This document shows positions 8,813 through 62,800 of a stretch of 64,000 nt of DNA, piece by piece (the stretch's first letter is position 1; every line of letters starts with the position of its first letter). Position numbers and translations under genes: made by a program. Below the pieces are notes generated by a model. It ran no database searches. It had not been told where the DNA came from and worked only from the letters and a program-made list of their open reading frames with translations. Where the stretch lies: positions 454,644 through 518,643 of the IMG/VR virus record IMGVR_UViG_3300017917_001342. One strand, written 5' to 3'. This stretch comes from a virus.

Positions 8813-8826
8813 TGTTGTCGTTGATC

Positions 8827-10023
8827 TTACATGCTCGGGATAAGATCGGTGTAACGCTTGGTGAACTCAACCCAATTCTTGAGTTTCGGTGCGTTGATCG
8901 GCAGCTTGTAAAGACCGAGCACAGTCTTAGCAGCCATAACAGCCAGTTCGTCCTCAAAGTTGTCCATGATGAACCGGAAGAACCGGTCGGTCATCTCGTG
9001 GAACTCAGTGAACGCCTTGGGGTTGGTCTTCACGTCGCGGCTAGCATCTTGCAGTTCGTAGCACAGCGCAGTGGTCAGCGCATACATGATGTCGATCTGC
9101 TTGCTGTTCAGCTTGGTGACCTTACCGCTAAGAATGTCTTTAGCAGCCGGCAGGTTAGCAGCCTGTTTGCGATAAGTCATAAACTTAACGCCCGGACCTT
9201 CCCCAACGGTACCTTTGATCAAGTCACCCAGCACTTCGGTCGGAAGATCGGTGTCAACCAAGTCACCGTTGTCGTCGGGTTCTTGCAGCAGTTCGCTAGC
9301 AAAGTACCACGAACGCGGAGTTGCAAACGCATAGCTGTCGCCGCTGGGTTTGAACTGGTTCAGGTCGTTCGGTTGGAAGCTGAGGTAGCCAACAATGTCC
9401 TTGTGGACACGATTCAGCACAGCCCATTCTTGCCAATCGTCGAAGCTAACGTCCAGCGTCACGTGAGTGAAGCGGTTAGCCAGCGGCATCGGCATGTTGT
9501 ATGCAACACCCTTGTCCTTAACACGGTTACCAGCAGCAACGATAACCACATCCTTAGGCAGCGTGTAAGTACCAATCTTACGGTTAAGGATGATCTGATA
9601 GGTTGCAGCTTGAACGCTGGGCGGAGCCGCGCTCATTTCGTCGAAGAACACCAGCGCACGGCTGTTGGGATCAGTTGGCAAGTCCGACGGAGTGGACCAG
9701 CGGAAAACCTTGTCAGTCAGCGGCACACCAGATTCATCTTTAACAAGGTTACCGTCCTTGTCGTAGATTTTCACATCTGCCAGATACGGGATACCGCGCA
9801 TGTCAGTGGGTTCCATCAGCGGCAGACGAATGTCGATCAGCGGACGATTTTGTTCGCGAGCAACTTCGGCAACAATGTCCGATTTACCAATGCCCGGAGG
9901 ACCCCAAACGAACAGCGGACGCTTGCGATTCAAGCTATGGCGCATAGCCATCTTAAGGCGGGAGGGAGTGACGCTTGCAGTTTCAAGCATACGATTCTTA
10001 GTAGCAGTGTTAGCGTTAGCCAT
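8827..10023 (-). CDS. MoxR-family AAA+ ATPase
   Basis: A 398-residue protein. GPPGIGKS (41-48) is Walker A and ALVFFDEM (123-130) is Walker B; PMPLANRFTH fits the sensor/arginine-finger region, and EPTDMRGIPY is a typical MoxR segment. MoxR ATPases act as hexameric chaperone-like machines with VWA partner proteins, and the next gene (7460-8743) is such a partner. A TTGACA promoter lies upstream within the end of the small gene before it, and a terminator follows. In a phage it may remodel host complexes or assist assembly; this is not determined by the sequence. Confidence 0.88.
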   Translation of the reverse strand: MANANTATKNRMLETASVTPSRLKMAMRHSLNRKRPLFVWGPPGIGKSDIVAEVAREQNRPLIDIRLPLMEPTDMRGIPYLADVKIYDKDGNLVKDESGVPLTDKVFRWSTPSDLPTDPNSRALVFFDEMSAAPPSVQAATYQIILNRKIGTYTLPKDVVIVAAGNRVKDKGVAYNMPMPLANRFTHVTLDVSFDDWQEWAVLNRVHKDIVGYLSFQPNDLNQFKPSGDSYAFATPRSWYFASELLQEPDDNGDLVDTDLPTEVLGDLIKGTVGEGPGVKFMTYRKQAANLPAAKDILSGKVTKLNSKQIDIMYALTTALCYELQDASRDVKTNPKAFTEFHEMTDRFFRFIMDNFEDELAVMAAKTVLGLYKLPINAPKLKNWVEFTKRYTDLIPSM

Positions 10024-10059
10024 CTTGTGTGTCTCCGTAGTGTTGTTGTCGATGAGTTA

Positions 10060-10087
10060 CATTTAGCACATTATTAGATACTGTCAA
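10060..10087 (-). promoter_or_regulatory. Putative sigma70-type promoter for the MoxR gene
   Basis: A perfect TTGACA (10082-10087, minus strand) with TAAATG 16 bases downstream (10060-10065). The -10 is poor, so the call rests on the -35 and its position 37 bases before the MoxR start. Confidence 0.4.
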
Positions 10088-14563: not shown

Positions 14564-15436
14564 TTATGCCAGACTAGCATACAAGTGTATTTGCAAGTTT
14601 AGAGTAAATCCATACTTGACACAATATTCTGCTGCATATTCATGGTTGCGTTGATTAGATTCTGCGTTAAGCAGGCCCGGGGTCCAGAATGAAACTACTT
14701 CGTCAATAGTGCTGCGCTCTTGCATAGTTGTCTGGTTAGAAGTTAGTCGCAGTTTCTTTGATGCAAGTGGTACTTCGTTATAGACATTCATTGGACTTAC
14801 ATAGATTTCTTTGCCTGTCTTGTTGCGCCACTCATGCGCCCAATCCGGTACCTCTGCATATGGAGAACCTTCTGTAGCTTCCATAACAAATTTCAAACAG
14901 TCTGCACGTTCGAGTATTTCTGGACGCGGTTTCAAATACCGCACTGCAATCTTATTCTTTTCTAAACATTTTGGTGAACATACTAACACAGTGGACGCTG
15001 GTATAGCTGTATTCTGTGTACCGTTTGATTCAATCTGAGTTTTAGTAAAAATTCTGTCCATGTATTCTAAAAACGGACCAATGTTGTCTTGCAGCATTGG
15101 TTCCCCACCTGTCATAACAAGCACCATTTTTTTACGAGCAACGTCGCTATGATGTGTCCATGCAGGCCTATCTAGTTTTTTATCTGTGTAGAATTGCTCG
15201 ATTGTCTGTTCTACACGTTCTGCGATCTGATCAAATGTTAGCCAATCACCGTCGTCGAAGAATGTATCACAGAATTGACAATCTAAGTTACATTTTGCAA
15301 GACGAATAAAGAACGCAGGTTCTCCACGAAAGGGTCCTTCACCTTGCAGTGTCATAAACATACTAGTTACAAACAGTTGATCTTTGCTTGCGTCTTTAAA
15401 GTATTTTTTACCAATGATTTCGTTTGTACCAAACAT
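14564..15436 (-). CDS. queE: 7-carboxy-7-deazaguanine synthase (radical SAM)
   Basis: A 290-residue protein. QueE converts 6-carboxytetrahydropterin to 7-carboxy-7-deazaguanine (CDG) by radical ring contraction. FMTLQGEGPFRGEPAFFIRL (27-46) is the family signature; C49, C53 and C56 form CxxxCxxC; MTGGEPMLQ (108-116) binds SAM; IESNGT, LVCSPKC and LKFV follow; and NLQIHLYA is the typical C-terminal end. It is longer than bacterial QueE by an insert near residues 60-100. It belongs with folE, queD and dpdA to the DNA-modification set of this phage. Confidence 0.94.
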   Translation of the reverse strand: MFGTNEIIGKKYFKDASKDQLFVTSMFMTLQGEGPFRGEPAFFIRLAKCNLDCQFCDTFFDDGDWLTFDQIAERVEQTIEQFYTDKKLDRPAWTHHSDVARKKMVLVMTGGEPMLQDNIGPFLEYMDRIFTKTQIESNGTQNTAIPASTVLVCSPKCLEKNKIAVRYLKPRPEILERADCLKFVMEATEGSPYAEVPDWAHEWRNKTGKEIYVSPMNVYNEVPLASKKLRLTSNQTTMQERSTIDEVVSFWTPGLLNAESNQRNHEYAAEYCVKYGFTLNLQIHLYASLA

Positions 15437-30393: not shown

Positions 30394-30726
30394 TTATACA
30401 CGAGGTTTTGGTTTTCTACCACGTTTGCGGCCAGTTGATCTGTTACTGCCATCTGCATTTATGTTGTAGACTTCTGCGTATCTGTCTAAACTCATGCCTT
30501 CTATACTGGTAATTAGATCCATTGATATTTTTATTGCTGCTGAGGTATACGGGTCCCTCAGCAGCAAAATGTATCCATCTACAGCACCGTCGATTTTATC
30601 TATTACCATATCTCGATAATGATGAGTGACTGTTCCATATTTAGAATGCTGTGGTATTTTTGCTGTAACCACAGTGTCTTCAACTAATACTCCTGATAGA
30701 ATCAATCGTTCTATAACTGCTGTCAT
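30394..30726 (-). CDS. Hypothetical protein with basic tail
   Basis: A 110-residue protein. It overlaps the ClpA-like gene by four bases. A small beta-rich body (VLVEDTVVTAKI, GAVDGYILLLRD) is followed by a basic end, STGRKRGRKPKPRV, that resembles an AT-hook (RGRKP). DNA binding is therefore possible; family unknown. Confidence 0.65.
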   Translation of the reverse strand: MTAVIERLILSGVLVEDTVVTAKIPQHSKYGTVTHHYRDMVIDKIDGAVDGYILLLRDPYTSAAIKISMDLITSIEGMSLDRYAEVYNINADGSNRSTGRKRGRKPKPRV

Positions 30727-33017
30727 TCATTGACCTCAGTAATACTGGTAGAATCTAACAATAGCAATTCTGTTTCATTAGTGAATTCCGGATTGCTAAG
30801 ATAGTCAAAAACCAACTGCGAATCCTTTACAGTGATCATCACTGCACCACCGTTTTTCAATTTACCAAACAGTATTTCTTTACTGATAGGCTTTTTAACA
30901 TTTTCTGCAATGACTCTCGACAGCGGTCTAGCACCCATCTTTTTGTCAAAGCCCTTGTCAATAAGCCACTGTTTAGCAGCAGGATCACAAATTATGTTAA
31001 CATTCTTTTTAGCAGACAGTTCATTCATTTGATTGATAAACTTGTCAACAATGTGTTCCATATTTTCTTTAGCAAGGCTACCAAACCGTACTATTGCATC
31101 AAGACGGTTACGGAATTCGGGAGTAAAGTATCTATTGATTGCTTGAGTATCTTCGTCTCTCAACGCATTCTCACTACCAAACCCGATACGGTCTTTTTCC
31201 ATATCTGCTGCACCTAGGTTACTGGTAAAGATAACAATTGCATTTCTTGCACTTGCACTCTTACCTTGACTACCTGTCACAGTACCGCTATCCATCATAG
31301 CAAGGAACACGTTATAAACATCGGGGTGTGCTTTTTCGATTTCATCAAACAGCAACACACAATGCGGATGTGTTTCTAATTCATTGATAAGAAGACCGCC
31401 ACCTGCTCCACCGTCGCTGTATCCTACATAACCCGGAGGGCTACCTAGGAATTTACTGACAGTGTGTCGTTCTTGGAATTCGCTCATATCAAATTTAGTA
31501 AAGTGAATTCCCAGACTCTTTGCCAATTGTTTAGCAACTTCTGTTTTACCTACACCACTTGGCCCACTAAACAGGAAACTACCTATAGTTTTGTCATTTT
31601 CACGTAGACCGCTACGGCTCATGTAGATTGCATCAGTTACACGATTAATTGCTTCGTCTTGTCCGAAGATCACTGTTTTAAGATCAGACTCTAAACGTTC
31701 TAGACGATCTGCTTCTTTACTCTTAACTGAAGTCACTGGCACTTTGGCAACACGGCTTACTTCTGCTTCGATTTCAGTTTTAGTAATAGTTTTAATACGT
31801 AGTTCTTCTGGGCGTATTTTTTGCCATGCTGCTGCACTGTCAATTACATCAATTGCTTTGTCTGGCAAAAATTTATCATGCATATGACGGCTAGTAAGTT
31901 CAACTGCTGCATCCAGTGCCGCGGTTTCATATTGCACGCCATGGAATTCTTCGTAGTATTTGGCAATACCTCTGAGAATACGCTTGCTGTCCTCGATGCT
32001 GGGTTCAAAAATATCAAGTTTTTGGAAACGTCGTACCATTGCACGGTCTTTTTCAAAATGCTTGCGATATTCTTCAGCAGTTGTACTACCTATGCAGCGA
32101 ATGTCGCCTCGACTCAGAGCCGGTTTAAGCATGTTGGCAGCATCCATACTGCCTGAACCACCGCCACTGCTACCTGCACCCATGATCATATGTATTTCAT
32201 CAATGAACATAATGTGTTCAGGTAGTGCTGTAAACGCAGCAATGATATGCTTCATGCGTTCTTCAAAGTCACCGCGGAATTTTGTACCTGCTACTAGGCT
32301 TGCAATATCTAGATTCCAAATTGTGCAGTTAGCAAGACTTTCTGGTACATCGCCTTCAACAATGCGTTTTGCAAGACCTTCGACAATAACAGTTTTACCA
32401 ACACCAGGGTCACCTGTCATAATGACATTGTGTTTGTTGCGTCTTGCAAGTATTTGACAGATTTGTTCAACTTCGCGTTCACGTCCGATCAATGGGTCAA
32501 TACGACCCGCTTCGGCTTTTGAATTAAGATTGATACAATATGTCTGCAATATTTCTATAGCAGAATTTTCATCCATTGTTGATTGTTCTTCTGCTGCAAC
32601 CTGATTTATCTGTGCAACTATTTTGTCTTTTGATGCAGAGTGCTGTTGAATGATCCAACTTGCAGGACTATCTTGAATGCCATACAGTGCAAGGTAGATG
32701 TCTTCTGGACCAATTTCTTTTCTGCCACTAAACATGCTGTGTGTTTTGGCTTTTTTAATAACCTGTGCAAGCAATGTAGTGTGTCTTGGTTGATATGAAC
32801 CCTGTTTAACAATTACATGATTGCGATCATCGTTTAACCAATCGCTAGTATCTTTGATCATTGCATCAAGATCGCCGCCTGTGCGTTTGATTAGTTTTTG
32901 AATAATACCATTTTCAAGCAGTCCAGCCAATAGATGTTCAAGAGTCACTAATTCGTGATTCATGCTTGCAGCCAATTGGTATGCACGTTGAATAGTCTGT
33001 TCGAAGCTGTTTTCCAT
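30723..33017 (-). CDS. clpA: ClpA-like AAA+ unfoldase
   Basis: A 764-residue protein, the length of E. coli ClpA. An N-terminal Clp repeat domain (1-140) is followed by two AAA modules. The first has GDPGVGKT (202-209) and FIDEIH (271-276); the second has GPSGVGKT (485-492) and LFDEIEKAH (556-564). An IGF tripeptide (611-613) lies where ClpA has its IGL loop for docking to ClpP, so it may recruit host ClpP, as no clpP is seen here. It unfolds proteins for degradation. It is cotranscribed with peptide deformylase and DnaJ, whose genes precede it with overlapping ends. Confidence 0.92.
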   Translation of the reverse strand: MENSFEQTIQRAYQLAASMNHELVTLEHLLAGLLENGIIQKLIKRTGGDLDAMIKDTSDWLNDDRNHVIVKQGSYQPRHTTLLAQVIKKAKTHSMFSGRKEIGPEDIYLALYGIQDSPASWIIQQHSASKDKIVAQINQVAAEEQSTMDENSAIEILQTYCINLNSKAEAGRIDPLIGREREVEQICQILARRNKHNVIMTGDPGVGKTVIVEGLAKRIVEGDVPESLANCTIWNLDIASLVAGTKFRGDFEERMKHIIAAFTALPEHIMFIDEIHMIMGAGSSGGGSGSMDAANMLKPALSRGDIRCIGSTTAEEYRKHFEKDRAMVRRFQKLDIFEPSIEDSKRILRGIAKYYEEFHGVQYETAALDAAVELTSRHMHDKFLPDKAIDVIDSAAAWQKIRPEELRIKTITKTEIEAEVSRVAKVPVTSVKSKEADRLERLESDLKTVIFGQDEAINRVTDAIYMSRSGLRENDKTIGSFLFSGPSGVGKTEVAKQLAKSLGIHFTKFDMSEFQERHTVSKFLGSPPGYVGYSDGGAGGGLLINELETHPHCVLLFDEIEKAHPDVYNVFLAMMDSGTVTGSQGKSASARNAIVIFTSNLGAADMEKDRIGFGSENALRDEDTQAINRYFTPEFRNRLDAIVRFGSLAKENMEHIVDKFINQMNELSAKKNVNIICDPAAKQWLIDKGFDKKMGARPLSRVIAENVKKPISKEILFGKLKNGGAVMITVKDSQLVFDYLSNPEFTNETELLLLDSTSITEVNE

Positions 33018-33532: not shown

Positions 33533-34401
33533 AAAGTTGGTTCGCCTCTTTGTTGTGCTATTGTTTTGATTTGCTCAAACTGTTCAACATTTAAATCTTT
33601 TGGTATACTGATGTTAACAGTGATAAACAAATCACCGCGTTGTCTTGCATTGTTGTGTACAGGCATACCGTTTCCGGCTACTCGTAAAATTGCACCAGTC
33701 TGTGTGCCTGCCGGAATGTTAATAGACAGATGTGTACCATCTATAGCTGTTAGCTCACGCTTTGTTCCAACTATTGCAGATAGTGCATCTAACTTCAATG
33801 CCATGTGCAGATGCGGTCCATCTCTCCTAAAAACAGGATGATCGTTGATACTCACTGTTACAAACAAATCACCTGGTGGTAAATTGTTGATAGACTTGTC
33901 ACCGTAACCTTGATAGCGCAATCGTGTACCATGTTGCACACCTGCTGGTATGTTGACAACTATGTTTCTAGATTGGCCATTTACTTCAAAGTTTATCGGT
34001 AAACTTTTACCTGCAAATGCTTCTTCTAATGTGATATTCAGAGTAAATTGATAGTCTTTGTTTTTTACAGGATGTTGTTGTCTAAATGCCTGTCCAAAGA
34101 ACTGATTGATCATGTCGTCAAATGGGTTACCATGACCAAAATCAAATGTAAACCCACCTGGTCCAAACGGCGATCCGCCATTCATATTACCAAACTTGCG
34201 CTGTTGGTCATATTGAGCACGTTTTTGCGGGTCGCTTAATATATCATTGGCTTCGTTTATTTGTTTAAACTTAGCTTCAGCATCGGGATTATCTTTGTTG
34301 AGATCCGGATGCCATTTTTTTGCGAGATTGCGATACGCAGTTTTTATTTCATCCTGCGACGCAGAGTCTGATAATCCTAAAGTACTATAATGGTCTGTCA
34401 T
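33529..34401 (-). CDS. DnaJ/CbpA-like co-chaperone
   Basis: A 290-residue type II J-protein. The J domain (1-70) has HPD within KKWHPDLNK. A Gly/Phe-rich linker (about 74-102) leads to a DnaJ C-terminal beta domain without the four CxxCxGxG zinc repeats. J-proteins stimulate host DnaK ATPase and hand over clients; phages also use them in replication or assembly. It heads the def-clpA operon on the minus strand and is divergent from the membrane protein at 34485. Confidence 0.92.
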   Translation of the reverse strand: MTDHYSTLGLSDSASQDEIKTAYRNLAKKWHPDLNKDNPDAEAKFKQINEANDILSDPQKRAQYDQQRKFGNMNGGSPFGPGGFTFDFGHGNPFDDMINQFFGQAFRQQHPVKNKDYQFTLNITLEEAFAGKSLPINFEVNGQSRNIVVNIPAGVQHGTRLRYQGYGDKSINNLPPGDLFVTVSINDHPVFRRDGPHLHMALKLDALSAIVGTKRELTAIDGTHLSINIPAGTQTGAILRVAGNGMPVHNNARQRGDLFITVNISIPKDLNVEQFEQIKTIAQQRGEPTL

Positions 34402-34448
34402 ATCATAAGTTTATAAATTTTCTAACGTTTGTCAAGGTATTAGATTTC

Positions 34449-34456
34449 TATAAATA
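34449..34456 (+). promoter_or_regulatory. Putative T4-type late promoter
   Basis: A perfect TATAAATA, 28 bases before the preferred GTG at 34485, in the gap between the divergent dnaJ-like gene and this gene. Confidence 0.6.
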
Positions 34457-34484
34457 TTGCGACTTGCGAAAAAAGGTGCATAAA

Positions 34485-35198
34485 GTGGCAGAATCGAGAA
34501 AAATACCAACATTTTCAAGAGCAGTACCTATTCTGGATGCATTGTTAAAGTATCTAACTAGAACTTCTCCATTGATGTTAGCAGTGCATTTAATTTATAT
34601 CAGCACTGCTAGTATATTCATAAGCATGGCATATGTTGTTAGTTTCCATTGGGAAAGTCTAGTACGACTATACGAAGAAGCACACGATATACAATCATTT
34701 TCTGCCAATTTGAAAACATCTGTAGAAAACGACAACAAAATCTACGGACACCTCAATACTATTATCAGCAATTCTGGAGGTATGCGTGCTTATGTATATC
34801 GCTATCACAACGGACTAGCTGCAATTTCAGGTGTGCCTTTTTTCTTTCAAACTATGACACACGAAGTAATCGCCAATGGTGCAACTCGTATTATACAATT
34901 TGAACAGCGTATACCAGCAAGCATACATATGGCAATTAACAATGATTTTGTAGAAGATAAATGTGCTATTATCGAAAATGCAGATAAAGATCCAAGCAGC
35001 CAAAACTATTACTTCTATCAAAGCAAGAACGCTAAGTCATTGATACGTTGTCCAATTTATATGGAAAATGGTGATTTGTTTGGATTTGTTGGAGTTGACT
35101 TTGCAGATCATATTCCTTCTGATACTAAGAAAACTGTAGATGAAATCAAAAACACTGCTAAAGATATAGGTAGATTATTCGCTACTACTGCCAAGTGA
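34485..35198 (+). CDS. Membrane-anchored GAF-like domain protein (possible holin)
   Basis: A protein of 237 residues from the GTG at 34485, which follows AAAGG; a longer open frame from 34320 covers the promoter and the start of the dnaJ gene. One hydrophobic segment is at about residues 27-52. The rest is soluble, with FGFVGVDFAD near the end as in GAF domains. One N-terminal membrane helix plus a large outer domain is also the topology of T4 holin T, so a lysis role is possible. Signal sensing is the alternative. The late promoter in front fits either. Confidence 0.6.
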   Translation: MAESRKIPTFSRAVPILDALLKYLTRTSPLMLAVHLIYISTASIFISMAYVVSFHWESLVRLYEEAHDIQSFSANLKTSVENDNKIYGHLNTIISNSGGMRAYVYRYHNGLAAISGVPFFFQTMTHEVIANGATRIIQFEQRIPASIHMAINNDFVEDKCAIIENADKDPSSQNYYFYQSKNAKSLIRCPIYMENGDLFGFVGVDFADHIPSDTKKTVDEIKNTAKDIGRLFATTAK

Positions 35199-35256: not shown

Positions 35257-35979
35257 ATGCAGATTCTTATACCAATGAGCGGAGCCGGCAAGAGATTTGC
35301 CGATATGGGTTATCAAAAACCAAAACCTTTAATAGAGTTTTTTGGTAAACCTATGATAGAACATGTGTTGGAAAATCTAGGTGCAGACAACGATTACATT
35401 CTCTGTGTGCAAAAAGCACACTATGATGCAGACCCAACTCTGTTCGAAAGATTAAAAACCAAAGTTAAAAGTTTATCTATAGTTCTAGTAAACGGTGTAA
35501 CACAGGGTGCAGCAGAAACCTGTCTGCTTGCAAAACAGCTATTGGATCTAGATAAACCGTTGTTCATTGCCAACTGTGATCAAATGATGGTATGGGATCA
35601 AACACATTTTGAAAATTGGTTTGCAGCAGAGAACCTGGATGGTGTTATGTTTGTGTTTGACAGCGACAGTACAAAAAACAGTTATGTAGAATTAGATAGC
35701 AACGGTATTGCTGTTAGAACTGCTGAGAAACAGGTTATCAGTCCCTATGCTACCAACGGCATCTATGTATGGAAACGTGCAGGCGACTTTGTCTGGGCAG
35801 CCGAAAAGATGATTGCAGATGATATACGTGTAAACAACGAATTCTATGTGTGTCCTGTATACAATGAAAACATTGCAAGAGGTGATCGTATAGGCATCTA
35901 CTATCCAACTGAGCATTGGCCTATTGGAACACCAGAAGACCTGGACATCTACATAAAGGCACACTATGAAACTGTTTGA
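35257..35979 (+). CDS. Sugar-phosphate nucleotidyltransferase-like protein
   Basis: A 240-residue protein. PMSGAGKRFADMGYQKPKP (6-24) is the nucleotide-binding signature (GxGxRF...KPKP) of NTP_transferase enzymes that activate sugar phosphates. IANCDQMM (near 109-116) supplies the metal-binding Asp, and NGIYVWK and HWPIGTPEDL match the family's end. It starts an operon with a cupin, a RuBisCO-like protein and glycosyltransferases, so it probably makes a nucleotide sugar. The exact sugar is unknown. Confidence 0.85.
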   Translation: MQILIPMSGAGKRFADMGYQKPKPLIEFFGKPMIEHVLENLGADNDYILCVQKAHYDADPTLFERLKTKVKSLSIVLVNGVTQGAAETCLLAKQLLDLDKPLFIANCDQMMVWDQTHFENWFAAENLDGVMFVFDSDSTKNSYVELDSNGIAVRTAEKQVISPYATNGIYVWKRAGDFVWAAEKMIADDIRVNNEFYVCPVYNENIARGDRIGIYYPTEHWPIGTPEDLDIYIKAHYETV

Positions 35980-36298
35980 TCCTGACGAATTTAAAGGCGG
36001 ATGGTTTATAGGAGATTTTGAACCTAGTATTTGGCGTACAACTGGTTTTGAAATAGGTTATAAACATCATATTGCAGGCGAAGCATGGCCTGCACACTAC
36101 CATGAACACATGGACGAAGTTACTTTTCTTCTAGAAGGTACAATGCAAATTTGCAATCAGACCATAACTGGTCCTATTATATTTTTAATAGGCCGTAATG
36201 AAATCGCTGACCCCGAATTTATAACAGACTGCAAGGTATTCATAATAAAAACTCCGTCTGTACCCGGAGATAAAGTTTTAATTGGAGATAAAACATGA
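35966..36298 (+). CDS. Cupin-domain protein
   Basis: A 110-residue single cupin. HYHEHMDEVTFLLEG (43-57) carries the HxH...E metal-binding motif, and the second motif is degenerate. It overlaps the upstream nucleotidyltransferase by 14 bases and the RuBisCO-like gene by four. Cupins in sugar operons can be isomerases, epimerases or binding proteins; the enzyme type cannot be set here. Confidence 0.82.
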   Translation: MKLFDPDEFKGGWFIGDFEPSIWRTTGFEIGYKHHIAGEAWPAHYHEHMDEVTFLLEGTMQICNQTITGPIIFLIGRNEIADPEFITDCKVFIIKTPSVPGDKVLIGDKT

Positions 36299-37518
36299 GC
36301 GCAATTGACATTGTGAGAGACGAAAAAAATCTTGCAAAATATTTTTATGTAACATACGACGTTGAAAGTACAAAAAGCGTATACGATGCTGCCTGGAATA
36401 TTGCAGTCGGACAAAGTATAGGTAATCCAAATACTCGCAGTATTTGGGAAACTGACGATATGATCGAAGCATACAGTGCTAAGATTTTACGCAATAGTAA
36501 TTTTGAAAAGAAAAAAGGCAAAGTTGTAATTGCATACCCCAATGCTAATATTGACTGGGACACCGATGGTATTGCACAGCTATTGTGTATAGTACAAGGT
36601 GGTCAGGTTGATATTGACAGCATTAAAAAATGCAGAGTGTTGGATATAGAAATACATCCTCAAATAATAGACAGCCACTTTAAAAAGCCTGCGCATGGTA
36701 TAACAGGTATGCGCGAGTTCACTAACACCTATGGTAAACCAATGTTCGGCGGTATCGTAAAACCAAAAACAGGTATTACTCCTCAGGTACTGTTGGACAT
36801 GACCAAAGAACTTGTAGAGGGTGGTGTTAACTTTATCAAAGAAGATGAAATTCTCAGCAACCCTGCTGTATGTAGATTGCAAGATCGAGTAGAACTTATC
36901 AGCAATTACATACAAGGTAAGAACGTAGTATACTGTTTCTGTATCAACAGTGATCCTGCATACGTAGTAGACCGCGCACGCTTTGTTGCACAGAATGGCG
37001 GTAATGGTGTGCATGTTAATATTTGGAGCGGATTAGGCAGCTATCGCAGTATACGCAACGCAGACCTCGGTCTGTTTATACACTATCAAAAGAGCGGCGA
37101 CAAAGTAATTACAGGTAAACAAAATCCCTTTGGTATTGAGTGGACAGTGCTTTGTAAACTGGCTGCAATGTGTGGTGTAGACACTATTCATGCAGGTATG
37201 TGGGGCGGATATCTCAGCGACGACGAAGAGGAACTGCGTAAAACACTTGCTGTACTGCATGATAGAAACGTATTACCTGCACTAAGCTGTGGTATGCATC
37301 CTGGTATTGTTAACGCAACATCTGAGAAATTTGGTGTAGATTTCCTTGCTAACGTTGGCGGTGCTATTCACGGACACCCAGGTGGTACACTTGCTGGCGC
37401 TAAGGCTATGCGTCAAGCAATAGATAAGACTCCGGGTCCAGAATTCAAAACTGCAATTGACAAATGGGGTTATGAAACCAACGGTGGTTCAATGCCGGAA
37501 TGGGTATTGGAATTCTGA
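36295..37518 (+). CDS. RuBisCO-like protein (large-subunit family)
   Basis: A 407-residue homologue of the RuBisCO large chain. The N-terminal domain has VVIAYPNANIDWDTD and KPAHGITGMRE; the barrel has GGIVKPKTGIT (152-162, equivalents of K175 and K177) and FIKEDEIL (180-187), keeping the carbamylated Lys and the Asp/Glu metal ligands. H263 and H299 match H294 and H327, and S331 matches S379. In loop 6, GMWGGYL puts Tyr306 where RuBisCO has Lys334, so CO2 fixation is very unlikely and a form IV enolase-type role is likelier. It overlaps the cupin by four bases (ATGA), and GGAG precedes its ATG. Confidence 0.9.
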   Translation: MSAIDIVRDEKNLAKYFYVTYDVESTKSVYDAAWNIAVGQSIGNPNTRSIWETDDMIEAYSAKILRNSNFEKKKGKVVIAYPNANIDWDTDGIAQLLCIVQGGQVDIDSIKKCRVLDIEIHPQIIDSHFKKPAHGITGMREFTNTYGKPMFGGIVKPKTGITPQVLLDMTKELVEGGVNFIKEDEILSNPAVCRLQDRVELISNYIQGKNVVYCFCINSDPAYVVDRARFVAQNGGNGVHVNIWSGLGSYRSIRNADLGLFIHYQKSGDKVITGKQNPFGIEWTVLCKLAAMCGVDTIHAGMWGGYLSDDEEELRKTLAVLHDRNVLPALSCGMHPGIVNATSEKFGVDFLANVGGAIHGHPGGTLAGAKAMRQAIDKTPGPEFKTAIDKWGYETNGGSMPEWVLEF

Positions 37519-37535
37519 TAGAAAGGTATAGGATT

Positions 37536-38024
37536 TTGCCATCTGTAATAATTGCACATAGAGGGTTGTTGGAGGGACCAGATGTAAATCTGCAGAATCG
37601 TCCAGATCAGGTGAAGAAAGCAATTGGCTTAGGCTTTCAAGTTGAAGTTGATGTGTGGTATATAGATGGCAAATGGTTTTTAGGACACGACGGACCTGAG
37701 CATAGTATAGATTGGCAGTTTCTAGCTGATCACAGCAATGACCTTTGGATACACTGTAAAAATCTAAATGCGTTCTTTGAGCTAAAAACTGATAGATCAC
37801 ATCAGTTAAATTACTTTTATCACGACAGTGACGCAGTTGTGTTAACAGCTAAAAACCACGTTTGGACATATTTTGGTAAACGCGAAACCATGCATCGCAG
37901 CAGTGTATGTGTAATGCCGGAAGTTAGTTATGAGTGGGAAGAAATAGTACAAATGGCAACAAACAATCAATGGTTTGCCATTTGTACGGATTACCCAAGA
38001 AAGCTCAAGGAATGTCTCGCGTAG
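37536..38024 (+). CDS. GDPD-like phosphodiesterase family protein
   Basis: A protein of 162 residues from the TTG at 37536, supported by AGAAAGG nine bases upstream; an ATG at 37500 lies inside the previous gene. IIAHRG and the following QVEVDVW with FLGHDGP match the glycerophosphodiester phosphodiesterase barrel (HRG, ExD, HD). It is shorter than typical GDPD (about 240), so it may be a reduced or non-catalytic form. It lies between the RuBisCO-like gene and the glycosyltransferases. Confidence 0.72.
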   Translation: MPSVIIAHRGLLEGPDVNLQNRPDQVKKAIGLGFQVEVDVWYIDGKWFLGHDGPEHSIDWQFLADHSNDLWIHCKNLNAFFELKTDRSHQLNYFYHDSDAVVLTAKNHVWTYFGKRETMHRSSVCVMPEVSYEWEEIVQMATNNQWFAICTDYPRKLKECLA

Positions 38025-38674
38025 CACTTTGCTTTGCAGGTCTACCAAGAATGTCTACAATCAGCACAGATAGCTGGCGTAGATTAATATCTCAACACCA
38101 TACAGATGTTTTTGTACATACTTGGGCTGATAATGATCCGCAACAGCTACAGCAATCTATTGCTGCAACCTATGCACCAAAAGAATTGATTGTTGAACAA
38201 CAACGTCAATTTGATACAGCTATCTATACTGATCGCATATGGGCATACCGTAGTTTTCCCAACAATGTATTGAGCATGTGGTACAGCATAGCACAGAGCC
38301 TACAGATGGCTGATAGATATGCTGCAAAATACAACATCACATATGATTATGTTTGTCGTGCTAGATTTGACTGGCACTGTAATCAATTTGATTTGCAACC
38401 ATTTGATGGCTTAACAGTACCAGATGATCCCGGTTTAAGTGGACATCATTTTCAACATAGAGGCCACTGGTATGTTGCACATAACGATCAATTTGGCTAT
38501 GGCAGCATGAATGTCATGCGCGATTATGGTGAGACCTTTTATCGCATACCATGGTTATATCAAATCGACAAAATAGACTTTTGCAGTGAATTATTCCTTA
38601 CAACAAATATGATTACAAAAAAAATTCCTGTAAAATTACAAAAGGGATGGGTTTATAGGATGGTACGCGAATGA
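38012..38674 (+). CDS. Glycosyltransferase-like protein
   Basis: A protein of 220 residues from the ATG at 38012, overlapping the end of the previous gene by 13 bases. VALCFAGLPR and DVFVHTWADN at the start, and DYVCRARFDW in the middle, match a family of small phage and bacterial glycosyltransferase-like proteins with a DxD-type site (RFDW). It ends in ATGA overlap with the next glycosyltransferase. Acceptor and donor are unknown. Confidence 0.65.
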   Translation: MSRVALCFAGLPRMSTISTDSWRRLISQHHTDVFVHTWADNDPQQLQQSIAATYAPKELIVEQQRQFDTAIYTDRIWAYRSFPNNVLSMWYSIAQSLQMADRYAAKYNITYDYVCRARFDWHCNQFDLQPFDGLTVPDDPGLSGHHFQHRGHWYVAHNDQFGYGSMNVMRDYGETFYRIPWLYQIDKIDFCSELFLTTNMITKKIPVKLQKGWVYRMVRE

Positions 38675-39744
38675 AAATAGCTGTATATACAATTGCACTT
38701 AATGAAATAAAACACTGTGAACGCTGGGCAGAATCTGTAAAAGATGCAGACTATCGAATCGTTTTAGACACTGGTAGTACAGATGGTACAGTAGAAAAAC
38801 TGCGCGAACTAGGTGTAACTGTATACGAACAGCAGTTTACACCTTGGCGTTTTGATGTTGCACGCAATGCTGCATTGAATTGTGTACCAGAAGATGCTGA
38901 TATCTGTATAAGCCAAGACATGGATGAATTTTTAGAGCCGGGATGGCGTGCAAAAATGGAAGCAGTTTGGCAGAAAGGTCAAACTACTAGATTGGCTTAC
39001 ACCTATGTATTTGATTATAGACCAGGTGGTAAGAATGACGGCTATCGTATGGATAAGATTCATGCTAGACAGGGTTACGAATGGCGCAGGCCAGTGCATG
39101 AAACTGTATGGAGCACACTGAGTTACGAAAACATTGCAGAAGATCTGTCTATTGTATTGAATCAAATACAAGACAGAAACAAAACAACTCGCAGCAACTA
39201 TTTGCCATTGATGGCTATGGCCACAGCAGAAAATCCCAATGACAGCCAATTGAGCTTTTGGTATGGACGCGAGTTAATGTACGCAAATCAACATGAAGCT
39301 GCTATCACAGAATTGAAACGCTATCTTGATCTAGAAACCAGTCGTTGGCCAGTAGAACGTAGCGAAGCTATGATTTATCTGTCTAGACTAACAGACAGCA
39401 GCAAATTTGACTATTTGCACAGGGCATTGATCTGTGCGCCAGAACGCAGACAGGTATGGTTAGAACTTGCTAGATATTATTACAGTAAACAAGACTGGCA
39501 TGGATTGCTATGGGCCTGTGGTAGCGGGCTTGAACACAGCCGCAGGGACAACAGCTATCTTGATCATGCAGATGCCTGGGGCAATCAACTACACGATTTT
39601 GGAAGCATTGCAGCAGCTAACTTAAAATGGTACGAAAAAGCTGTGGAATGGTGCCAATTAGCGATAAACATACAACCAACTGATGATAGATTGCGTGCAA
39701 ACTTAAATTGGATGCAAAGCAAACTAGGAGAGATTTCAAAATGA
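38671..39744 (+). CDS. GT2 glycosyltransferase with helical-repeat C-terminus (copy 1)
   Basis: A 357-residue protein. Residues 1-100 form a GT-A fold: ALNEIKHCERW, LDTGSTDGT (31-39) and ISQDMDEF with a DxD-like metal site. After residue 180 the sequence is a run of paired helices (SQLSFWYGRELMYANQHEAAI...) like TPR repeats. It is a tandem duplicate of the next gene, with which it overlaps four bases. It probably transfers a sugar to a glycan or protein of phage or host surface. Confidence 0.85.
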   Translation: MKIAVYTIALNEIKHCERWAESVKDADYRIVLDTGSTDGTVEKLRELGVTVYEQQFTPWRFDVARNAALNCVPEDADICISQDMDEFLEPGWRAKMEAVWQKGQTTRLAYTYVFDYRPGGKNDGYRMDKIHARQGYEWRRPVHETVWSTLSYENIAEDLSIVLNQIQDRNKTTRSNYLPLMAMATAENPNDSQLSFWYGRELMYANQHEAAITELKRYLDLETSRWPVERSEAMIYLSRLTDSSKFDYLHRALICAPERRQVWLELARYYYSKQDWHGLLWACGSGLEHSRRDNSYLDHADAWGNQLHDFGSIAAANLKWYEKAVEWCQLAINIQPTDDRLRANLNWMQSKLGEISK

Positions 39745-40805
39745 AAATAGCTATATACGGTCCGGCAAAAAACGAATTCAAACATGTCGAAGCATGGTAT
39801 GACAGTTGCAAAGATGCAGACATTATCTGCGTTGCAGACACTGGTAGTACAGATGGTACACCAGAATTAATGCGACAACTTGGTGTACAAGTTACAGATG
39901 TACGTATATCACCTTGGCGATTTGATGATGCATTTAATACAGCAATGTATCTGGTGCCCGATTGGGTCGATGTTTGTATTCGATTAGACACAGACGAGCG
40001 TCTTGTAGAAGGTTGGAGAGCAGCGTTAGAAGCAGCATGGACACCTGAAACAACACGTTTACGTTACCCTTATGTATGGAATTGGAACCCAGATGGCACA
40101 CCAGGCCGTACATGGTATGGCGATCGTATCCACAAGCGAGTTGGTTACAGATGGATGGGTGCAACACACGAAGGGCTTGTTAGCAGGTTGCCGGAAATTC
40201 AAACCTATACAGACACTGTGAAGATACATCATTTCCCGGATGTAAAAAACAAATCGGGCGATTTGCCATTGCTGTTAGAATCTGTAAAAGAGTGGCCGCA
40301 TGATGCTAGAATCCGTGCTTACCTTGCTAGAGAATACATGTATGCTAGAAACTACGAGAAAGCAGCAGAAACCTACAAAGAATTCCTAGGAATGAGCTGG
40401 GACACTGCCGAACGCTGTCAGGCAATGACATCACTGGCACAAGCAGAACCAGAAAATAAAATCTACTGGTTAAGGCAAGCTGCGTATGAAGTACCAACAC
40501 ACAGAGAACCTCTAGTATATCTTGCACAACACTATTACGACAAAAGTGAATGGCAAAAGTGTTATGAATATGCACACAAGGCTTTGGCAATTACCAGACA
40601 TCCTATGGATTATACCTGCACACCGGAAGCATGGGGATGGCAACCACACGATTTGTTAAGCATTGCAGCATGGAATCTCAAGCTGTACAAAGAAAGTCTC
40701 GAACATGCTAAACTGGCATTGTCACATGCTACACATGATGTAAGGCTGCAAAACAATGTCAAGCTCATTGAAGAATTTATAGCTAAGAATCTCAGTGACA
40801 GTTGA
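39741..40805 (+). CDS. GT2 glycosyltransferase with helical-repeat C-terminus (copy 2)
   Basis: A protein of 354 residues from the ATG at 39741 (AGGAG upstream). It shows the same domain order as its neighbour: MKIAIYGPAKNEFKHVEAW, ADTGSTDGT, RLDTDE as metal site, then TPR-like helices. The two proteins align along their whole length and arose by duplication; the second has diverged in the acceptor half. It is the last gene of the sugar operon. Confidence 0.85.
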   Translation: MKIAIYGPAKNEFKHVEAWYDSCKDADIICVADTGSTDGTPELMRQLGVQVTDVRISPWRFDDAFNTAMYLVPDWVDVCIRLDTDERLVEGWRAALEAAWTPETTRLRYPYVWNWNPDGTPGRTWYGDRIHKRVGYRWMGATHEGLVSRLPEIQTYTDTVKIHHFPDVKNKSGDLPLLLESVKEWPHDARIRAYLAREYMYARNYEKAAETYKEFLGMSWDTAERCQAMTSLAQAEPENKIYWLRQAAYEVPTHREPLVYLAQHYYDKSEWQKCYEYAHKALAITRHPMDYTCTPEAWGWQPHDLLSIAAWNLKLYKESLEHAKLALSHATHDVRLQNNVKLIEEFIAKNLSDS

Positions 40806-48851: not shown

Positions 48852-56759
<7,908 letters not shown>

Positions 56760-56823: not shown

Positions 56824-59800
56824 ATGGTCGCCAAGAGTCAAGACTTTGTAGTCAAACATGGACTACAAGTTTCAAGCAACCTTGTGGTAGGTGCGTATAC
56901 TGGCTTTGCATCAAGTCAGCAAATCAACAACGGTGCGATAATCAGCGGAAATGTTGGTATTGGTACATCAACAGTAATAGCCGGCACTCGTCTGCAAGTA
57001 ACCAACGGAAATCTAAGGATTTCTTCTGCGAATACCGGCATTTTATTCCAGGATGGTACCCTACAAACTACTGCTGCAACCAACACTCCTAGCTACGGTC
57101 TCCCTTATACCATACAGTTTGCTGGTGCTGCAAATACATTTAGCGGTGATAGTACAAACCTTGTCTGGAACAACACAACTGCTACTCTGCAAGCAAATAA
57201 TATCGCAGTAACAGGAACTACTCCTGCAACTACGTTTGGTACTGGTTCTCTTACCACAGCAGGTGGTGCAAGCATTGGTGGCAACCTTTATATCGGTGGC
57301 AACTTTACTGTAGGTGGCCAGGTTAACTTTTCCAACGTAGGTGGTATTCAGAACCTTGTGGTTACAAGTTTAACCAGTAACACTACTGTTCAAGCTGCAA
57401 CAACTGTACAAGGCAACAACCTTATTGCTAACCTGACTCTGGGTGTTGGTACCACAGTTGCAGCATATCCTATTGATGTCTACGGCAATATTCATATCGG
57501 CAACACTGCTACAGCTAGTGGTTTAGTATTCCCAGACGGTAGTTTCCAAACCACTGCTGCAAGAAATACACCAAGTTTTGGTGCACAAGGCACAGTGCAA
57601 TTTGCAGGTGCTGCGAATGCATTCAGTGGCAATACTGATAACTTCTTCTGGGATACTGCAAACACACAATTAAATGTTAACAGACTAAAAGTTAATAGCA
57701 CTGCAACAGTTCAAAGCTTGAACAGCAACACAAACGTTGTTGCTACAAATATTCAAAGTACTGGTCAGGCAACAGTAGCGTCGTTAGTAAGCAACAGTAC
57801 AATAAGCGGTACTGCGGCAACGTTTACAAGTCTACAAAACAGTGGATCTACTACGGTTCAAAGTTTGAATAGTAACACCAATATAGTTGCGACTAATTTA
57901 CAATCAACCGGTCAAGCATCGGTTTCAACTCTTATTAGTAACGGTGCAGTTAGTGGTACAACTGGCACATTTGGTGCAGGATTGCAGAGTGGTGCAGCAA
58001 CAGTTTCAAGTTTGAATAGCAACACTAATGTTGTTGCAACCAATCTACAATCAACTGGCACTGCTACAGTAAATGCATTGACTAGTAATGGAGCAATCAG
58101 CGGAACTAGTATAAACGGTACTGTTGGTACATTTACATCTCTGCAAAACAGCGGTACTGCTACTGTTCAAAGTTTGAATAGTAACACCAATGTAGTTGCG
58201 ACTAATTTACAATCAACTGGTCAGGCATCGGTCGCATCATTAGTAAGCAACGGTGCTATTTCGGCTACAACTATTTCTGGTACTGCTAGTACATTTACAT
58301 CTATACAAAACAGCGGTACTACTACTGTTCAAAGTCTAAACAGCAACACCAATGTAGTTGCTACTAATCTACAATCAACTGCACAGACTACAGTTCAAAG
58401 TCTAGTAGTTAACACAAACATAACCACTGCAACTCTTAATTCTACAGGTGCAGCACAGGTCAGCAGTTTAACAAGTAACACTAATATTACCAGTCAAACA
58501 GGTGTATTCGCTAGTAATGTTGGAATTGGCACAACTGTACTTTATACAGGTGATGCACTGAGAGTAGTGGGCGGTAACATCAATGTTGCAGTATCTGGCA
58601 CGGGTATACTGTTCCCAGATGGCAGTTTCCAACAGAGTTCAGCTGGTAGTTCAGCCGCAGGAACAGACAAAGCAGTTCAGTTTAACAATGGCGGATTATT
58701 TGCTGGACAAACCAACTTTATATTCGATAAAACCAACATTCGTTTAGGTATAGGTACTACAAATCTAACCAACAGTTTGATGGTATTTTCTGCAACACCT
58801 GCACTGTTTAACACTACCAATGGCGCAGATCAACAGTTAATAGTCGGTAACACTGAAACAACTGGTATTGTTCTAGGATTTAACAGCAGCAGTGGTACTG
58901 GTGTAAACACCTATGGTTATTTGAGCGCAGTAGGTGCCGCAGCTAAGAACATATCTCTTACTAAGACAGGCACAGGTATTGGTGGTATAACCATACCTCA
59001 GAATACACTGGATGTTGGCGGCGGTGTTGCAATAGGATTCACCTATGCTGGTTCAATTACAGCACCATCAAATGGTCTATTAGTACAAGGGACTATTGGT
59101 GTAGGATCATCAGCACCTATTAGTAAACTAGATGTCATAGGTGGTGCTGCATTTACCGGTGCTGTAAGTGCAGGCGGTGCGTTATCTGCAAATTCTGTTA
59201 CCAGTAATACATTTGTGAGAACTGCAACCGTAAATGCATCTAGTACTATCGTTGGTGCAAATCTCTACAGTAATGGATTTGTACAAAGCGCAGGTACTGT
59301 TACAGGTCAGGCAGTTGTAAGTAATAGCACTGTAACAGCTAGTACAGGACTTAGTGTAACTGCTGGCGGTATGACAGTAACAGGTACTAGTAGCTTTACT
59401 GGTAACGTTAATATCACAGGCAACGTTAATGTCACTGGTTCTATTAACTCTACAGAATCCAACATACTTGTAGTACAAGATCCACTTATCTATGTAGGTC
59501 AAAATAATCCCGGCGACCTATACGATCTAGGTATAGTAGGTGCATACACCGAAGGATCGTACTATAACACTGGTATTGTTCGTAATCACATTGACAATTT
59601 CTGGACCGTGTTTGACACATTAACAGCAACTCCCAATGTCATTACAGGTAATATCGACTGGACAGATAGTACATTAACCTACGGCCCATTCAAAGCTGGC
59701 AACATTGTTGTTGCTGGTAACACAGCCAGCACCGGCACTAACAGTGGTGCTATGATAATCAACGGCACTGGTGGATTAGGCGTAGGTGGCAGAATCAATG

Positions 59801-62800
59801 TTGGCGGCAGTGCTTGGTTTGCAGGTGCTGTAAATGCCGGAGGTACTGCAACTGTTAACGCATTGATTAGTAACACAACTATAAACGGCGGTGTTACAAC
59901 CGTTACAACATTCCAATCAAACGGCGCTACTGTCAACAGCTTAAACAGTAACACCAATGTTGTTGCTACCAATCTGCAATCAACCGGCACTGCAACTGTT
60001 GCATCGTTGGTTAGCAATGGTTCTATAACTGGTACTACTATAAACGGCACTGCTGCAACTGTTACATCACTTCAAAGCAGTGGTACGGCAACTGTTGCAT
60101 CATTAACTAGCAACGGTGCTGTTAGTGGTACTAACGGTACATTTACTGGTGCACTTTATGCCGGTAGTTTCAACACTGCTGGTACAGCTACAGTAAATGC
60201 ATTGATAAGCAATGGTGCAATAACTGGTACTACAATCAATGGTACTGCGGCAACTGTTACATCACTTCAAAGCAGTGGCACAGCAACAGTAAACTCACTG
60301 GTAAGCAACAGTTCAATAACTGCTACAACTATCTCTGGTACTGCACTCACTGTAACAAGTATACAAAATAGCGGCACTACCACAGTGCAGAGTTTAAACA
60401 GCAATACCAATGTGGTTGCAACCAATCTACAAAGTACAAGTACTGCAACCGTTGCAAGTCTTGTAAGCAATGGTGCTGTCAGTGGTACCAGTGGTACATT
60501 TACTGGCAGTTTATACAGCGGCAGTTTTAACACTGCCGGCGTTGCCACTGTTAACAGTTTAGTAAGCAACGGTGCCATTTCGGCTACAACTATATCTGGT
60601 ACCGCACTCACTGTTACCAGTATACAAAACAGTGGCACAACTACAGTACAGAGTTTGAATAGCAATACCAACGTAGTAGCTACTAACCTGCAATCAACTG
60701 GTGCTGCAACTGTTGCATTGTTAACCAGTAACGGTGCTGTTAGTGGTACTAGTGGTACGTTCACTGGCGCTTTATACAGTGGTAGTTTTAATAGTGCAGG
60801 CACTGCAACGGTAAACAGTTTAGTGAGCAATGGTGCAATTACTGCGACTACCATAACAGGTACCGCTGCAATTGTTACAAGTTTACAGAATAGCGGTACT
60901 GCAACTGTAAACGCACTTGTTTCAAACGTTTATGGGTTGTTTGGTCAAAACGTAACTGTTAACTCAACCAACGCATCAACTAGCACAACAACCGGTGCAC
61001 TGATACTTGCAGGTGGTGCAGGTATCGGCGGCAACATCAATGTCGGCGGTGCGAATAACTTATTCACAAATAAAGTTGGTATTGGTACCAGCACGGTTAC
61101 AGGCGCAAGAGCAAACGTACTTGCTGTTTACGGCAACGCAGACATTTACGGCAATATCGATCTTGCTAATCCTGCTGGTGGTACTAGTGGCATTTACTTC
61201 AGTGATGGTACATATCAAACCAGTGCTGCTGGTTCTACAACACCGTATAGCAATACCAACGTTGCTAGTTACCTAAGCGGGCCTGTCAGAGTTGGCAACC
61301 TAAGTATTGTTAACACCACAGCAAGTACTAGCACACTCACTGGTGCATTACTCTTGGGCGGCGGTGCAGGTATTCAAGGTGCAGTTCACATAGGCGGATT
61401 GATCTACGGCGCAAGTACGCTAAACATAGCAGGCACTGCACAGGTCAACAGTTTGATCAGTAACGGTGCTGTTAGTGGTACAACTGGTACGTTTACTTCG
61501 GCACTTTATAGTGCTAGCTTCAACACTGCTGGTGTTGCTACTGTGAACAGTTTAGTGAGCAACAGTTCTGTAAGTGGCACCTCTGGTACATTTACCGGTG
61601 CACTATATAGTGGTAGTTTTAATACCGCGGGTGTTGCTACAGTTAACTCATTGGTAAGCAATAGTTCTGTAAGTGGCACCTCTGGTACATTTACTGGTGC
61701 TCTGTATAGTGGTAGTTTTAATACCGCGGGTGTTGCTATAGTTAACTCATTGACTAGCAATGGTTCAATAAGTGGTACAACAGGTACATTTACATCACTA
61801 CAGAGTAGTGGTACTGCAACAGTTGCAAGTCTTGTAAGTAACGGGGCTGTAAGTGGCACAAGTGGTACATTTACTGGTGCATTGTACGGTGGTAGTTTCA
61901 ACAGTGCAGGTACAGTTACAGTTAACACACTGGTAAGCAATGGTGCGATTTCGGCTACAACTATCTCTGGTACCGCACTCACTGTAACAAGTATACAAAA
62001 CAGCGGAACTACTACGGTTCAAAGCCTAAACAGCAATACCAACGTAGTAGCTACTAACCTGCAATCAACTGGATTAACCAGTGTTGCAAGTCTCAATGTA
62101 AACGCAGGTATTACCACACAAACATTGACTACAAGCGGTGCTGCAATAGTAAGCAGTTTAACTAGCAACAGTACTATTCAAAGTGCAGGTGCTCTTACTG
62201 CTGCATCAATTACCAGCAATGCTGGCATAAGCGGCGCAAGTGCTACTATCACTAACAATCTATATTCTGGAACTGCAAATATCAACGGTGCATTGCAAGC
62301 AGGTAGCGTAGCAAGCAACGGTGCAGTCAGTGGCACTAGTGGTACGTTTACTGGCGCATTGTATGGCGGTAACTTTAATACAGCAGGCACTGCTACTGTT
62401 AATGCACTAGTAAGCAACACTGATGTTAAAACTGCAACAGTGAACGCATCAAGTACTATAGTTGGTGCTAACATTTACAGCAATGGATTTGTACAAAGCG
62501 CAGGTACTGTCACCGGCCAGGCGATTTCAAGTAACACAACTGTTACAGCCGGAACAGGACTCACAGTTACCAGTGGCGGCATGACCGTAACAGGTACTAG
62601 TAGCTTTACTGGTAATGTCAACATCACAGGCAACGTTAATGTTACTGGTTCGATTAATTCCACGGCATCTAATATACTTGTAGTACAAGACCCACTTATC
62701 TATGTAGGTCAAAATAACCCAAGTGATCTCTATGATCTGGGTATAGTAGGTGCATACACAGAAGGCAGTTATTACAATACAGGTATTGTTCGTAATCACA

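Follow-up and report, generated by a model that had tools for sequence, protein, structure and literature searches.

What a relative of the RuBisCO large chain does in the genome of a giant phage is the question raised by an open reading frame (ORF) of the IMG/VR virus record IMGVR_UViG_3300017917_001342. RuBisCO-like proteins (RLPs) serve as a model of the way in which new chemistry arises in a single active site, and just a few reactions are known for them. The stretch analysed here, hereafter the window, comprises 64,000 nucleotides and is the terminal part (positions 454644–518643) of the 518,643-bp record; coordinates given below without a locus name are those of the window. A first-pass annotation, made from the sequence alone, had described the product of this ORF as a full-length RuBisCO large-chain relative of form IV type, encoded in a sugar operon.

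The RuBisCO-like protein and its carrier

The RLP gene (36295..37518, + strand) is a complete ORF with an ATG start that codes for 407 amino acids; its start overlaps the stop of the upstream cupin ORF by 4 bp. The protein matched both large-chain domains in Pfam, RuBisCO_large (PF00016; 2.5e-39, 135.8 bits against a cut-off of 30.1) and RuBisCO_large_N (PF02788; 2e-07, above the cut-off), and its top match by sequence in PDB was the form III RuBisCO of Pyrococcus horikoshii (2cwx, 1.4e-41). An AlphaFold2 model, obtained with 47 family members as input, had a pLDDT of 94.5 and a pTM of 0.92, and a Foldseek search with this model again put form III RuBisCO on top (TM ~0.86, E ~1e-32), with MtnW and other RLPs ranking below it. 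None of the equivalog cut-offs in NCBIfam was reached, the scores being 191 bits for rubisco_III (cut-off 497), 148 bits for OiaX (cut-off 700; aligned to residues 20–377) and 129 bits for MtnW (cut-off 409; 1.4e-37). Foldseek comparison with a library of predicted viral proteins gave no RuBisCO match, only weak partial barrel matches. A degenerate DNA pattern for the FIKEDEI motif of the RLP had one match in the window and none in 100 shuffles. Judged from its sequence and its predicted α/β-barrel fold, the window RLP, with both domains, can be firmly placed inside the RuBisCO superfamily. Pfam, PDB, AlphaFold and Foldseek thus agree on the full-length relative seen in the first-pass annotation, and none of them pointed to a placement outside the superfamily.

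The RLP is under strong purifying selection. Comparison of the RLP genes of two viral relatives (L001 and L002) yielded a pN of 0.054 versus a pS of 0.70; against the window copy, pS was close to saturation with pN of only 0.14–0.18.

The record is a giant T4-like phage. The genes for the T4 gp23 capsid protein (310 bits) and for a terminase are located elsewhere on it than the RLP cassette, and near the RLP ORF are genes for PhoH (closest to that of the jumbo phages Phosso and Atu_ph07), a virion protein, tail fibres, a Clp-type ATPase and peptide deformylase. The GC content of the RLP ORF (0.416) is like that of its neighbours and of the window (0.422), and there are no N bases. Given these phage hallmarks, the uniform GC and the recurrence of the cassette across many independent viral contigs, a chimera with bacterial DNA, the outcome against which the first-pass annotation had wished its proposal to be checked, can be rejected. 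Genes for PRK and RbcS were looked for in the record and neither was found.

Elsewhere in the window we noted a thymidylate synthase (3964..4806, + strand), a QueE-like radical SAM protein (14564..15436, – strand) and the Clp-type protease ATPase (30723..33017, – strand). Two long ORFs of 425 and 398 amino acids overlap on opposite strands (8800..10077, + strand, and 8827..10023, – strand) in a region with a GC of 0.51 versus 0.42; the + strand ORF has no PHROG match. An ORF of 2634 amino acids (48855..56759, + strand), where GC rises to 0.52, is accompanied by several long antisense ORFs, and ORFs longer than 90 amino acids are scarce in the final 7 kb of the record (57100..64000).

Active-site residues

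We compared 20 active-site columns, in form I numbering, in 131 distinct sequences of the clade described below. Sixteen of these columns are invariant and the other four nearly so, with the proviso that at G39, N44, P45, K182, D184 and E185 of the window RLP the invariance is partly circular, as the sequences were selected by patterns (FIKEDEI and GQSxGNP in the IMG/VR family scan, HxQKSGD in the GTDB scan) that overlap some of the scored columns. Columns outside every scan pattern are those of K156, K158, Y306, S331, C332, G333, G355 and G356. The KEDE motif of the RLP is K182-E183-D184-E185, and the metal-site residues K182, D184 and E185 (equivalent to K201, D203 and E204) are found in 131 of 131 sequences, as are K156 and K158, the equivalents of K175 and K177. 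Also retained throughout the clade are S379, G381, G403 and G404, with H327 kept in 128 of the 131 sequences. The lysine K182 is presumably carbamylated.

The other columns carry a different, equally fixed set of residues. Loop-6 K334 is replaced by Tyr (Y306 in the window RLP), E60 by Gly (G39) and H294 by Gln (Q265) in all 131 sequences, and R295 by Lys (K266) in 129 of them; T65 to Asn, W66 to Pro and G380 to Cys are likewise fixed, and H298 is replaced by Asp in 128 of 131. In the column of N123 the clade has Gly (G103 in the window RLP, with Q104 adjacent), a Gln being adjacent in 126 of 131 sequences, and the register here is uncertain by one. A pair-shifted register (H263 for H294 and Y264 for R295) was set aside for the one given by phmmer and MAFFT (Q265 and K266).

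Joint loss of E60, N123, H294 and K334 is incompatible with known carboxylation chemistry, and every form I, II and II/III sequence sampled keeps all four. Since all four are replaced in the RLP, it should not carboxylate and would be a form IV protein in the broad sense, that is, a RuBisCO homologue without the carboxylation-essential residues. The retention of K177 together with the loss of K334 sets the clade apart from MtnW and from the OiaX group and its kin. Several statements of the first-pass annotation are upheld by this comparison: the KEDE site (carbamylation itself being a likely reading of it) and several other active-site residues persist, the loop-6 lysine is replaced by Tyr306, and the form IV assignment agrees both with an active site incompatible with carboxylation and with a position outside forms I–III. 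The structure prediction with active-site comparison that it had suggested returned a RuBisCO fold with a fixed residue set unlike those of MtnW and the OiaX kin.

Phylogeny and distribution

In both FastTree and IQ-TREE phylogenies, the viral, SAR11 and Azospirillum RLPs formed one clade (support 1.000 and UFBoot 100, respectively), with a stem branch of 0.77 substitutions per site in the IQ-TREE tree. This clade, which answers the call for a tree of RuBisCO forms, is separate from forms I, II, III and II/III, MtnW, the OiaX group and a Chlorobiota-type group (L146, L148) that is probably IV-Photo, in a tree built without named members of IV-GOS, IV-AMC, IV-DeepYkr, IV-Aful and IV-NonPhoto. 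Cellular RLPs sit at the base of the clade (support 47) and are also nested within phages (L072–L077, support 100; L075), so that the gene must have passed between cells and phages; with a basal support of 47, it may have done so in either direction. Two higher-scoring Patescibacteria sequences (L154, L155) were rejected as cellular relatives, as they retain the full canonical set of RuBisCO residues and fall with form III.

The clade is mostly viral and rare in cells. There were no RLP homologues among 50,697 phage records, so the view that RLPs are not standard phage genes holds for cultured phages; it does not extend to IMG/VR, where the gene recurs in hundreds of contigs. Searching IMG/VR with the window protein alone gave 70 relatives, and the family alignment matched 374 stretches, 353 of them encoding a relative; these are hits, not lineages, as the contigs may be near-identical. 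Viral contigs scanned with a form I query gave no match, a search that covers close relatives of one protein only. A large viral subgroup (L180–L216), 60–63% identical to the window RLP, shares with it a C-terminal extension, GGSxPEWxLxF.

Among GTDB genome contigs we found 11 RLP loci, mainly of SAR11; the carriers were SAR11 single cells, another alphaproteobacterial single cell, a Patescibacteria MAG, a member of Crocinitomicaceae (on a 3.3-kb contig) and Azospirillum oleiclasticum. In genome samples that contained the seed genomes, clear members were present in 2 of 297 genomes from a single SAR11 family (each of the two a known seed), 1 of 399 Pseudomonadota (Azospirillum; 379 bits, with the next best at 128), 1 of 396 Bacteroidota and 1 of 287 Patescibacteria. 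Two SAR11 loci look chromosomal, as read from the initial sequences of the neighbouring genes: in L081 the RLP gene adjoins Mrp-, HflK/HflC-, DegP- and MiaA-like genes and in L074 genes of envelope-glycan type, with flippase-type genes and a PntAB-like pair. A highly divergent RLP on the Vibrio nigripulchritudo plasmid pVNTG1 (L104:4803-5948) has E204 replaced by Asp, R295 by Ser and K334 by Arg, and adjoins a split transketolase and an FGGY kinase. On the haloarchaeal plasmids L098 and L099, an OiaX-type RLP is followed by a four-carbon acid sugar kinase.

The cassette and its glycan island

All-against-all clustering of neighbours revealed a recurrent order on a single strand: nucleotidyltransferase, cupin, RLP and GDPD-like protein. 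In the window, the nucleotidyltransferase (35257..35979, + strand; NTP_transferase or RmlA/MobA/IspD-like) has 240 amino acids, matches PF00483 at 7.9e-11 and has 4evw as its nearest solved structure (2e-31 by profile). The small cupin (35966..36298, + strand; 110 amino acids) was recognised through family profiles, Cupin_7 in 16 of 25 members and Cupin_2 in 6 of 25, with the window copy itself below threshold; the metal-binding motif HxH...E (H44, H46, E51) is invariant in the family. The GDPD-like protein (37500..38024, + strand) has 174 amino acids from the first ATG and its ORF overlaps the 3' end of the RLP gene, so that the RLP gene is indeed flanked by cupin and GDPD-like genes, as first annotated. 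In the GDPD-like family the motifs HRG, ExD, GHD and K are found, with invariant H-R-G, E, D, H and K columns; E19 is nearly invariant, but is Gln in the window copy. Its AlphaFold model (pLDDT 95) had only GDPDs as best Foldseek matches (E ~1e-4) and the protein also matched PDB GDPDs by profile; it had no Pfam GDPD match and is ~80–100 residues shorter than solved GDPDs. Immediately upstream of the cassette is an ORF of 292 amino acids (34320..35198, + strand) with no Pfam or NCBIfam match, which the nearest relatives also have (cluster 31, 6 loci).

The nucleotidyltransferase is the most constant partner of the RLP. Within 4.5 kb of the RLP gene on the same strand, viral loci encoded the nucleotidyltransferase in 69 of 71 cases, the cupin in 62 of 71 and the GDPD-like protein in 56 of 71; for cellular loci the counts within 4.5 kb were 10/11, 3/11 and 9/11. 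A second scan of 80 loci (64 new by contig name) found the same three genes within 3 kb in 78, 72 and 56 loci, respectively. With the cupin as bait, the nucleotidyltransferase was present at all 80 loci and the RLP at 70. As some SAR11 and Azospirillum RLPs have no adjacent cupin or GDPD-like gene, not every member of the cassette is obligatory.

Downstream, the window encodes a DUF7796-type protein (37934..38674, + strand; PF25072, 9.4e-10; true start uncertain), a family 2 glycosyltransferase with TPR (38671..39744, + strand; PF00535, 1.1e-06; PHROG 13126 'beta-1,4-glycosyltransferase', 3.4e-88) and a paralogue of the latter (39708..40805, + strand; shared blast cluster 32, weak TPR_2). Genes of the islands include those for GDP-mannose dehydratase-type epimerases, FkbM methyltransferase, UDP-GlcNAc 2-epimerase, UDP-sugar dehydrogenase, DegT aminotransferase and several glycosyltransferases, and the islands adjoin phage DNA polymerase, clamp loader and Thy1 genes. 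The 'sugar operon' of the first-pass annotation is a defined cassette. Pelagimyophages have host-recognition islands with LPS-type genes (PMC7029224).

Ten cupin-bait loci had no RLP, and in these we read from the sequences what the nucleotidyltransferase nearest the cupin carried. In 8 of the 10 it has a C-terminal HAD-like domain, with the motif DxDGT in seven and DIDGS in L257; three of them (L298, L299 and L301) are near-identical. In L317 (6235-7392, + strand) it is fused to ribose-5-phosphate isomerase B (RpiB; 115.9 bits, cut-off 24.7), a HAD-type motif outside the RpiB domain being a chance match, and in L328 it has no extra domain. At loci with RLP, by comparison, the nucleotidyltransferase is short and lacks a HAD motif in 66 of 70 cases. 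The cultured cyanophage S-SKS1 (L173:5001-6425), which has no RLP, joins its nucleotidyltransferase to a complete DHBP synthase (RibB) domain, which scored 188.1 bits versus the TIGR00506 cut-off of 177.45, apparently a non-riboflavin use of a ribulose-5-phosphate enzyme. Two further cultured cyanophages without RLP have a nucleotidyltransferase fused to a beta-phosphoglucomutase-type HAD (S-CAM9) and a class II aldolase near the nucleotidyltransferase (S-SM2).

Proposed function and its alternatives

Making a nucleotide-activated glycan precursor is, in our judgement, quite probably the role of the cassette. We think it reasonably likely that the RLP contributes an enolisation or isomerisation; enolisation of a phosphorylated sugar would fit the retained metal and phosphate-site residues and the cassette partners. 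Ribulose-5-phosphate is made by RpiB and used by DHBP synthase, and the substrate of RuBisCO itself is a pentulose. These few fusions and the RuBisCO substrate suggest a pentulose-phosphate-like substrate for the RLP, an identification that we regard as tentative: the RpiB and DHBP synthase fusions are represented by one example each, and the commonest RLP alternative, the HAD phosphatase-like domain, is uninformative on pentuloses. Replacement of R295 by K266, with H327 and S379 kept, would also be compatible with a possible bisphosphate substrate.

In the proposed mechanism, carbamylated K182 would hold Mg2+ together with D184 and E185, while K156, K158 and the phosphate-site glycines would bind a phosphorylated ketose. 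The RLP would remove a proton beside the carbonyl to give an enediolate; with K334, E60 and N123 absent, no CO2 would be held, and reprotonation would yield an isomer or epimer of the pentulose-phosphate-like compound. The nucleotidyltransferase would then join this product to a nucleotide, possibly after action of the cupin, and glycosyltransferases of the island would put the activated sugar onto a surface glycan, which might serve to remodel the envelope of the infected host or to decorate the virion. Going by fold, one might guess at epimerase or isomerase activity for the cupin and at phosphodiester cleavage for the GDPD-like protein. Taken as a whole, the proposal that an active, non-carboxylating RLP isomerises a pentulose-phosphate-like sugar, which is then nucleotide-activated for a surface glycan, is the one that we favour, with moderate confidence.

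The fold, the top sequence match to form III and the retained metal site and K175/K177 equivalents might instead be taken to indicate a carbon-fixing RuBisCO, a viral rbcL auxiliary metabolic gene (AMG) that raises CO2 fixation by the host, and publications treat viral 'rbcL' as a gene of carbon fixation, with activity claimed for one set (PMC12615777). This is highly improbable, given the replacement of K334, E60 and H294 in 131 of 131 sequences, the absence of PRK and RbcS from the record, the glycan-synthesis gene context and a rubisco_III score of 191 against 497. Just as little credence can be given to a methionine-salvage enolase (MtnW) or another sulfur-salvage RLP. MtnW is an RLP of like size that enolises a keto-phosphate, and its profile does match (1.4e-37), but with 129 bits against 409; it has Lys at N123, Pro at R295, Ser at K334 and no K177, where the clade has Gly (Gln adjacent), Lys, Tyr and Lys at N123, R295, K334 and K177, respectively. 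MtnW sequences fall outside the clade in both trees, and the annotated families of the cassette include no salvage genes. That the gene is host DNA brought in by mis-assembly, or encodes a decaying pseudoenzyme, is scarcely credible in spite of the related genes in SAR11 and a few other bacteria, considering the cassette in many independent viral contigs, the phage hallmarks and uniform GC, and the strong purifying selection on an invariant active site.

An OiaX-like decarboxylase or transcarboxylase would break or form a C–C bond in a branched or 3-oxo sugar-acid phosphate, so that the nucleotidyltransferase receives a short-chain ketose phosphate. Such C–C bond chemistry is possible by analogy, as OiaX decarboxylates; the OiaX group is form IV with known sugar-phosphate chemistry (PMC6302742), its profile aligns to residues 20–377 of the RLP, and the cassette of S-SM2 neighbours a class II aldolase. 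We nonetheless consider it unlikely: the OiaX score is 148 bits against 700, the OiaX group is a separate clade that has R295 and K334 and lacks K177, the opposite of the RLP clade, and the four-carbon acid sugar kinase that adjoins OiaX-type genes is absent from the annotated families of the cassette. The near-obligatory pairing with the nucleotidyltransferase, and the fact that the RLP alternatives are domains fused to it, would also suit a non-catalytic or regulatory subunit of a nucleotidyltransferase complex, but invariant metal-site, lysine and phosphate-site residues favour catalysis and make such a role very doubtful.

The cassette supplies a concrete substrate class to test, in a context, nucleotide-activated glycan synthesis, that is undescribed for the RuBisCO superfamily in the papers found. 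The clade is well populated and mainly viral, and its active-site signature is fixed and differs from that of every form sampled; through exchange of apparent envelope-glycan cassettes, it connects SAR11 with giant phages and with other T4-like phages. Whether it represents a largely viral family with a reaction new to the superfamily (ribulose-5-phosphate-type isomerisation or epimerisation for a nucleotide-activated glycan precursor), its cassette exchanged between phages and SAR11 and its members behind some of what has been published as 'viral rbcL carbon fixation', is a broader proposition that we find plausible, if somewhat short of probable.

Comparison with known systems

Searches of the open literature for viral or glycan-linked RLPs yielded nothing beyond AMG lists, reviews and papers on other subjects; an earlier description in subscription journals or preprints, which lie outside that search, is possible. 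The Global Ocean Sampling survey of 2007 listed 65 RuBisCO homologues outside known groups (PMC1821046), and the name IV-GOS is used in PMC10173188; these marine metagenome homologues may include the RLP clade, although the available portions of these papers describe no link to viruses or to the RLP cassette. Lists of carbon-fixation genes include viral rbcL in studies of the Great Salt Lake (PMC8506154), mining soils (AMGs with 25–36% similarity to known genes; PMC12615777), an estuary (PMC13390420), landfill ('RbcL-like'; PMC12607003) and hydrothermal mats (PMC10159854). Like the RLP, these are RuBisCO-large homologues on viral contigs, described mostly in terms of carbon fixation. Some of them may belong to the non-carboxylating clade and are worth rechecking against it; the residues in the loop-6 (Lys versus Tyr) and H294 (His versus Gln) columns provide a simple sequence check for such claims.

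Form III RuBisCO (2cwx; 3a12 of Thermococcus kodakarensis) has the same fold (TM 0.86), with 29% identity to 2cwx in the Foldseek alignment. The RLP keeps its K175, K177, K201, D203, E204, H327, S379, G381, G403 and G404, whereas E60, T65, W66, N123, H294, R295, H298, K334 and G380 are changed. OiaX (3-oxo-isoapionate-4-phosphate decarboxylase) and its kin, including 3nwr, share with the RLP the superfamily and the carbamate/metal triad, and OiaX acts on sugar-derived phosphates, the substrate class proposed for the RLP; the OiaX kin are found in a catabolic context with a four-carbon acid sugar kinase, whereas the RLP belongs to a glycan cassette. MtnW (2,3-diketo-5-methylthiopentyl-1-phosphate enolase; 2oek, 2zvi) is non-carboxylating and of similar length, and enolisation would be common to both, but the two differ in the N123, K177, R295 and K334 columns and belong to separate clades. 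A parallel in gene content is provided by cyanophages S-CAM9, S-SM2, S-SKS1, Bellamy, SynMITS9220M01 and B23, which have a related nucleotidyltransferase in glycan islands, a GDPD-like protein in most cases and sometimes the cupin, as in the cassette described here, but lack the RLP.
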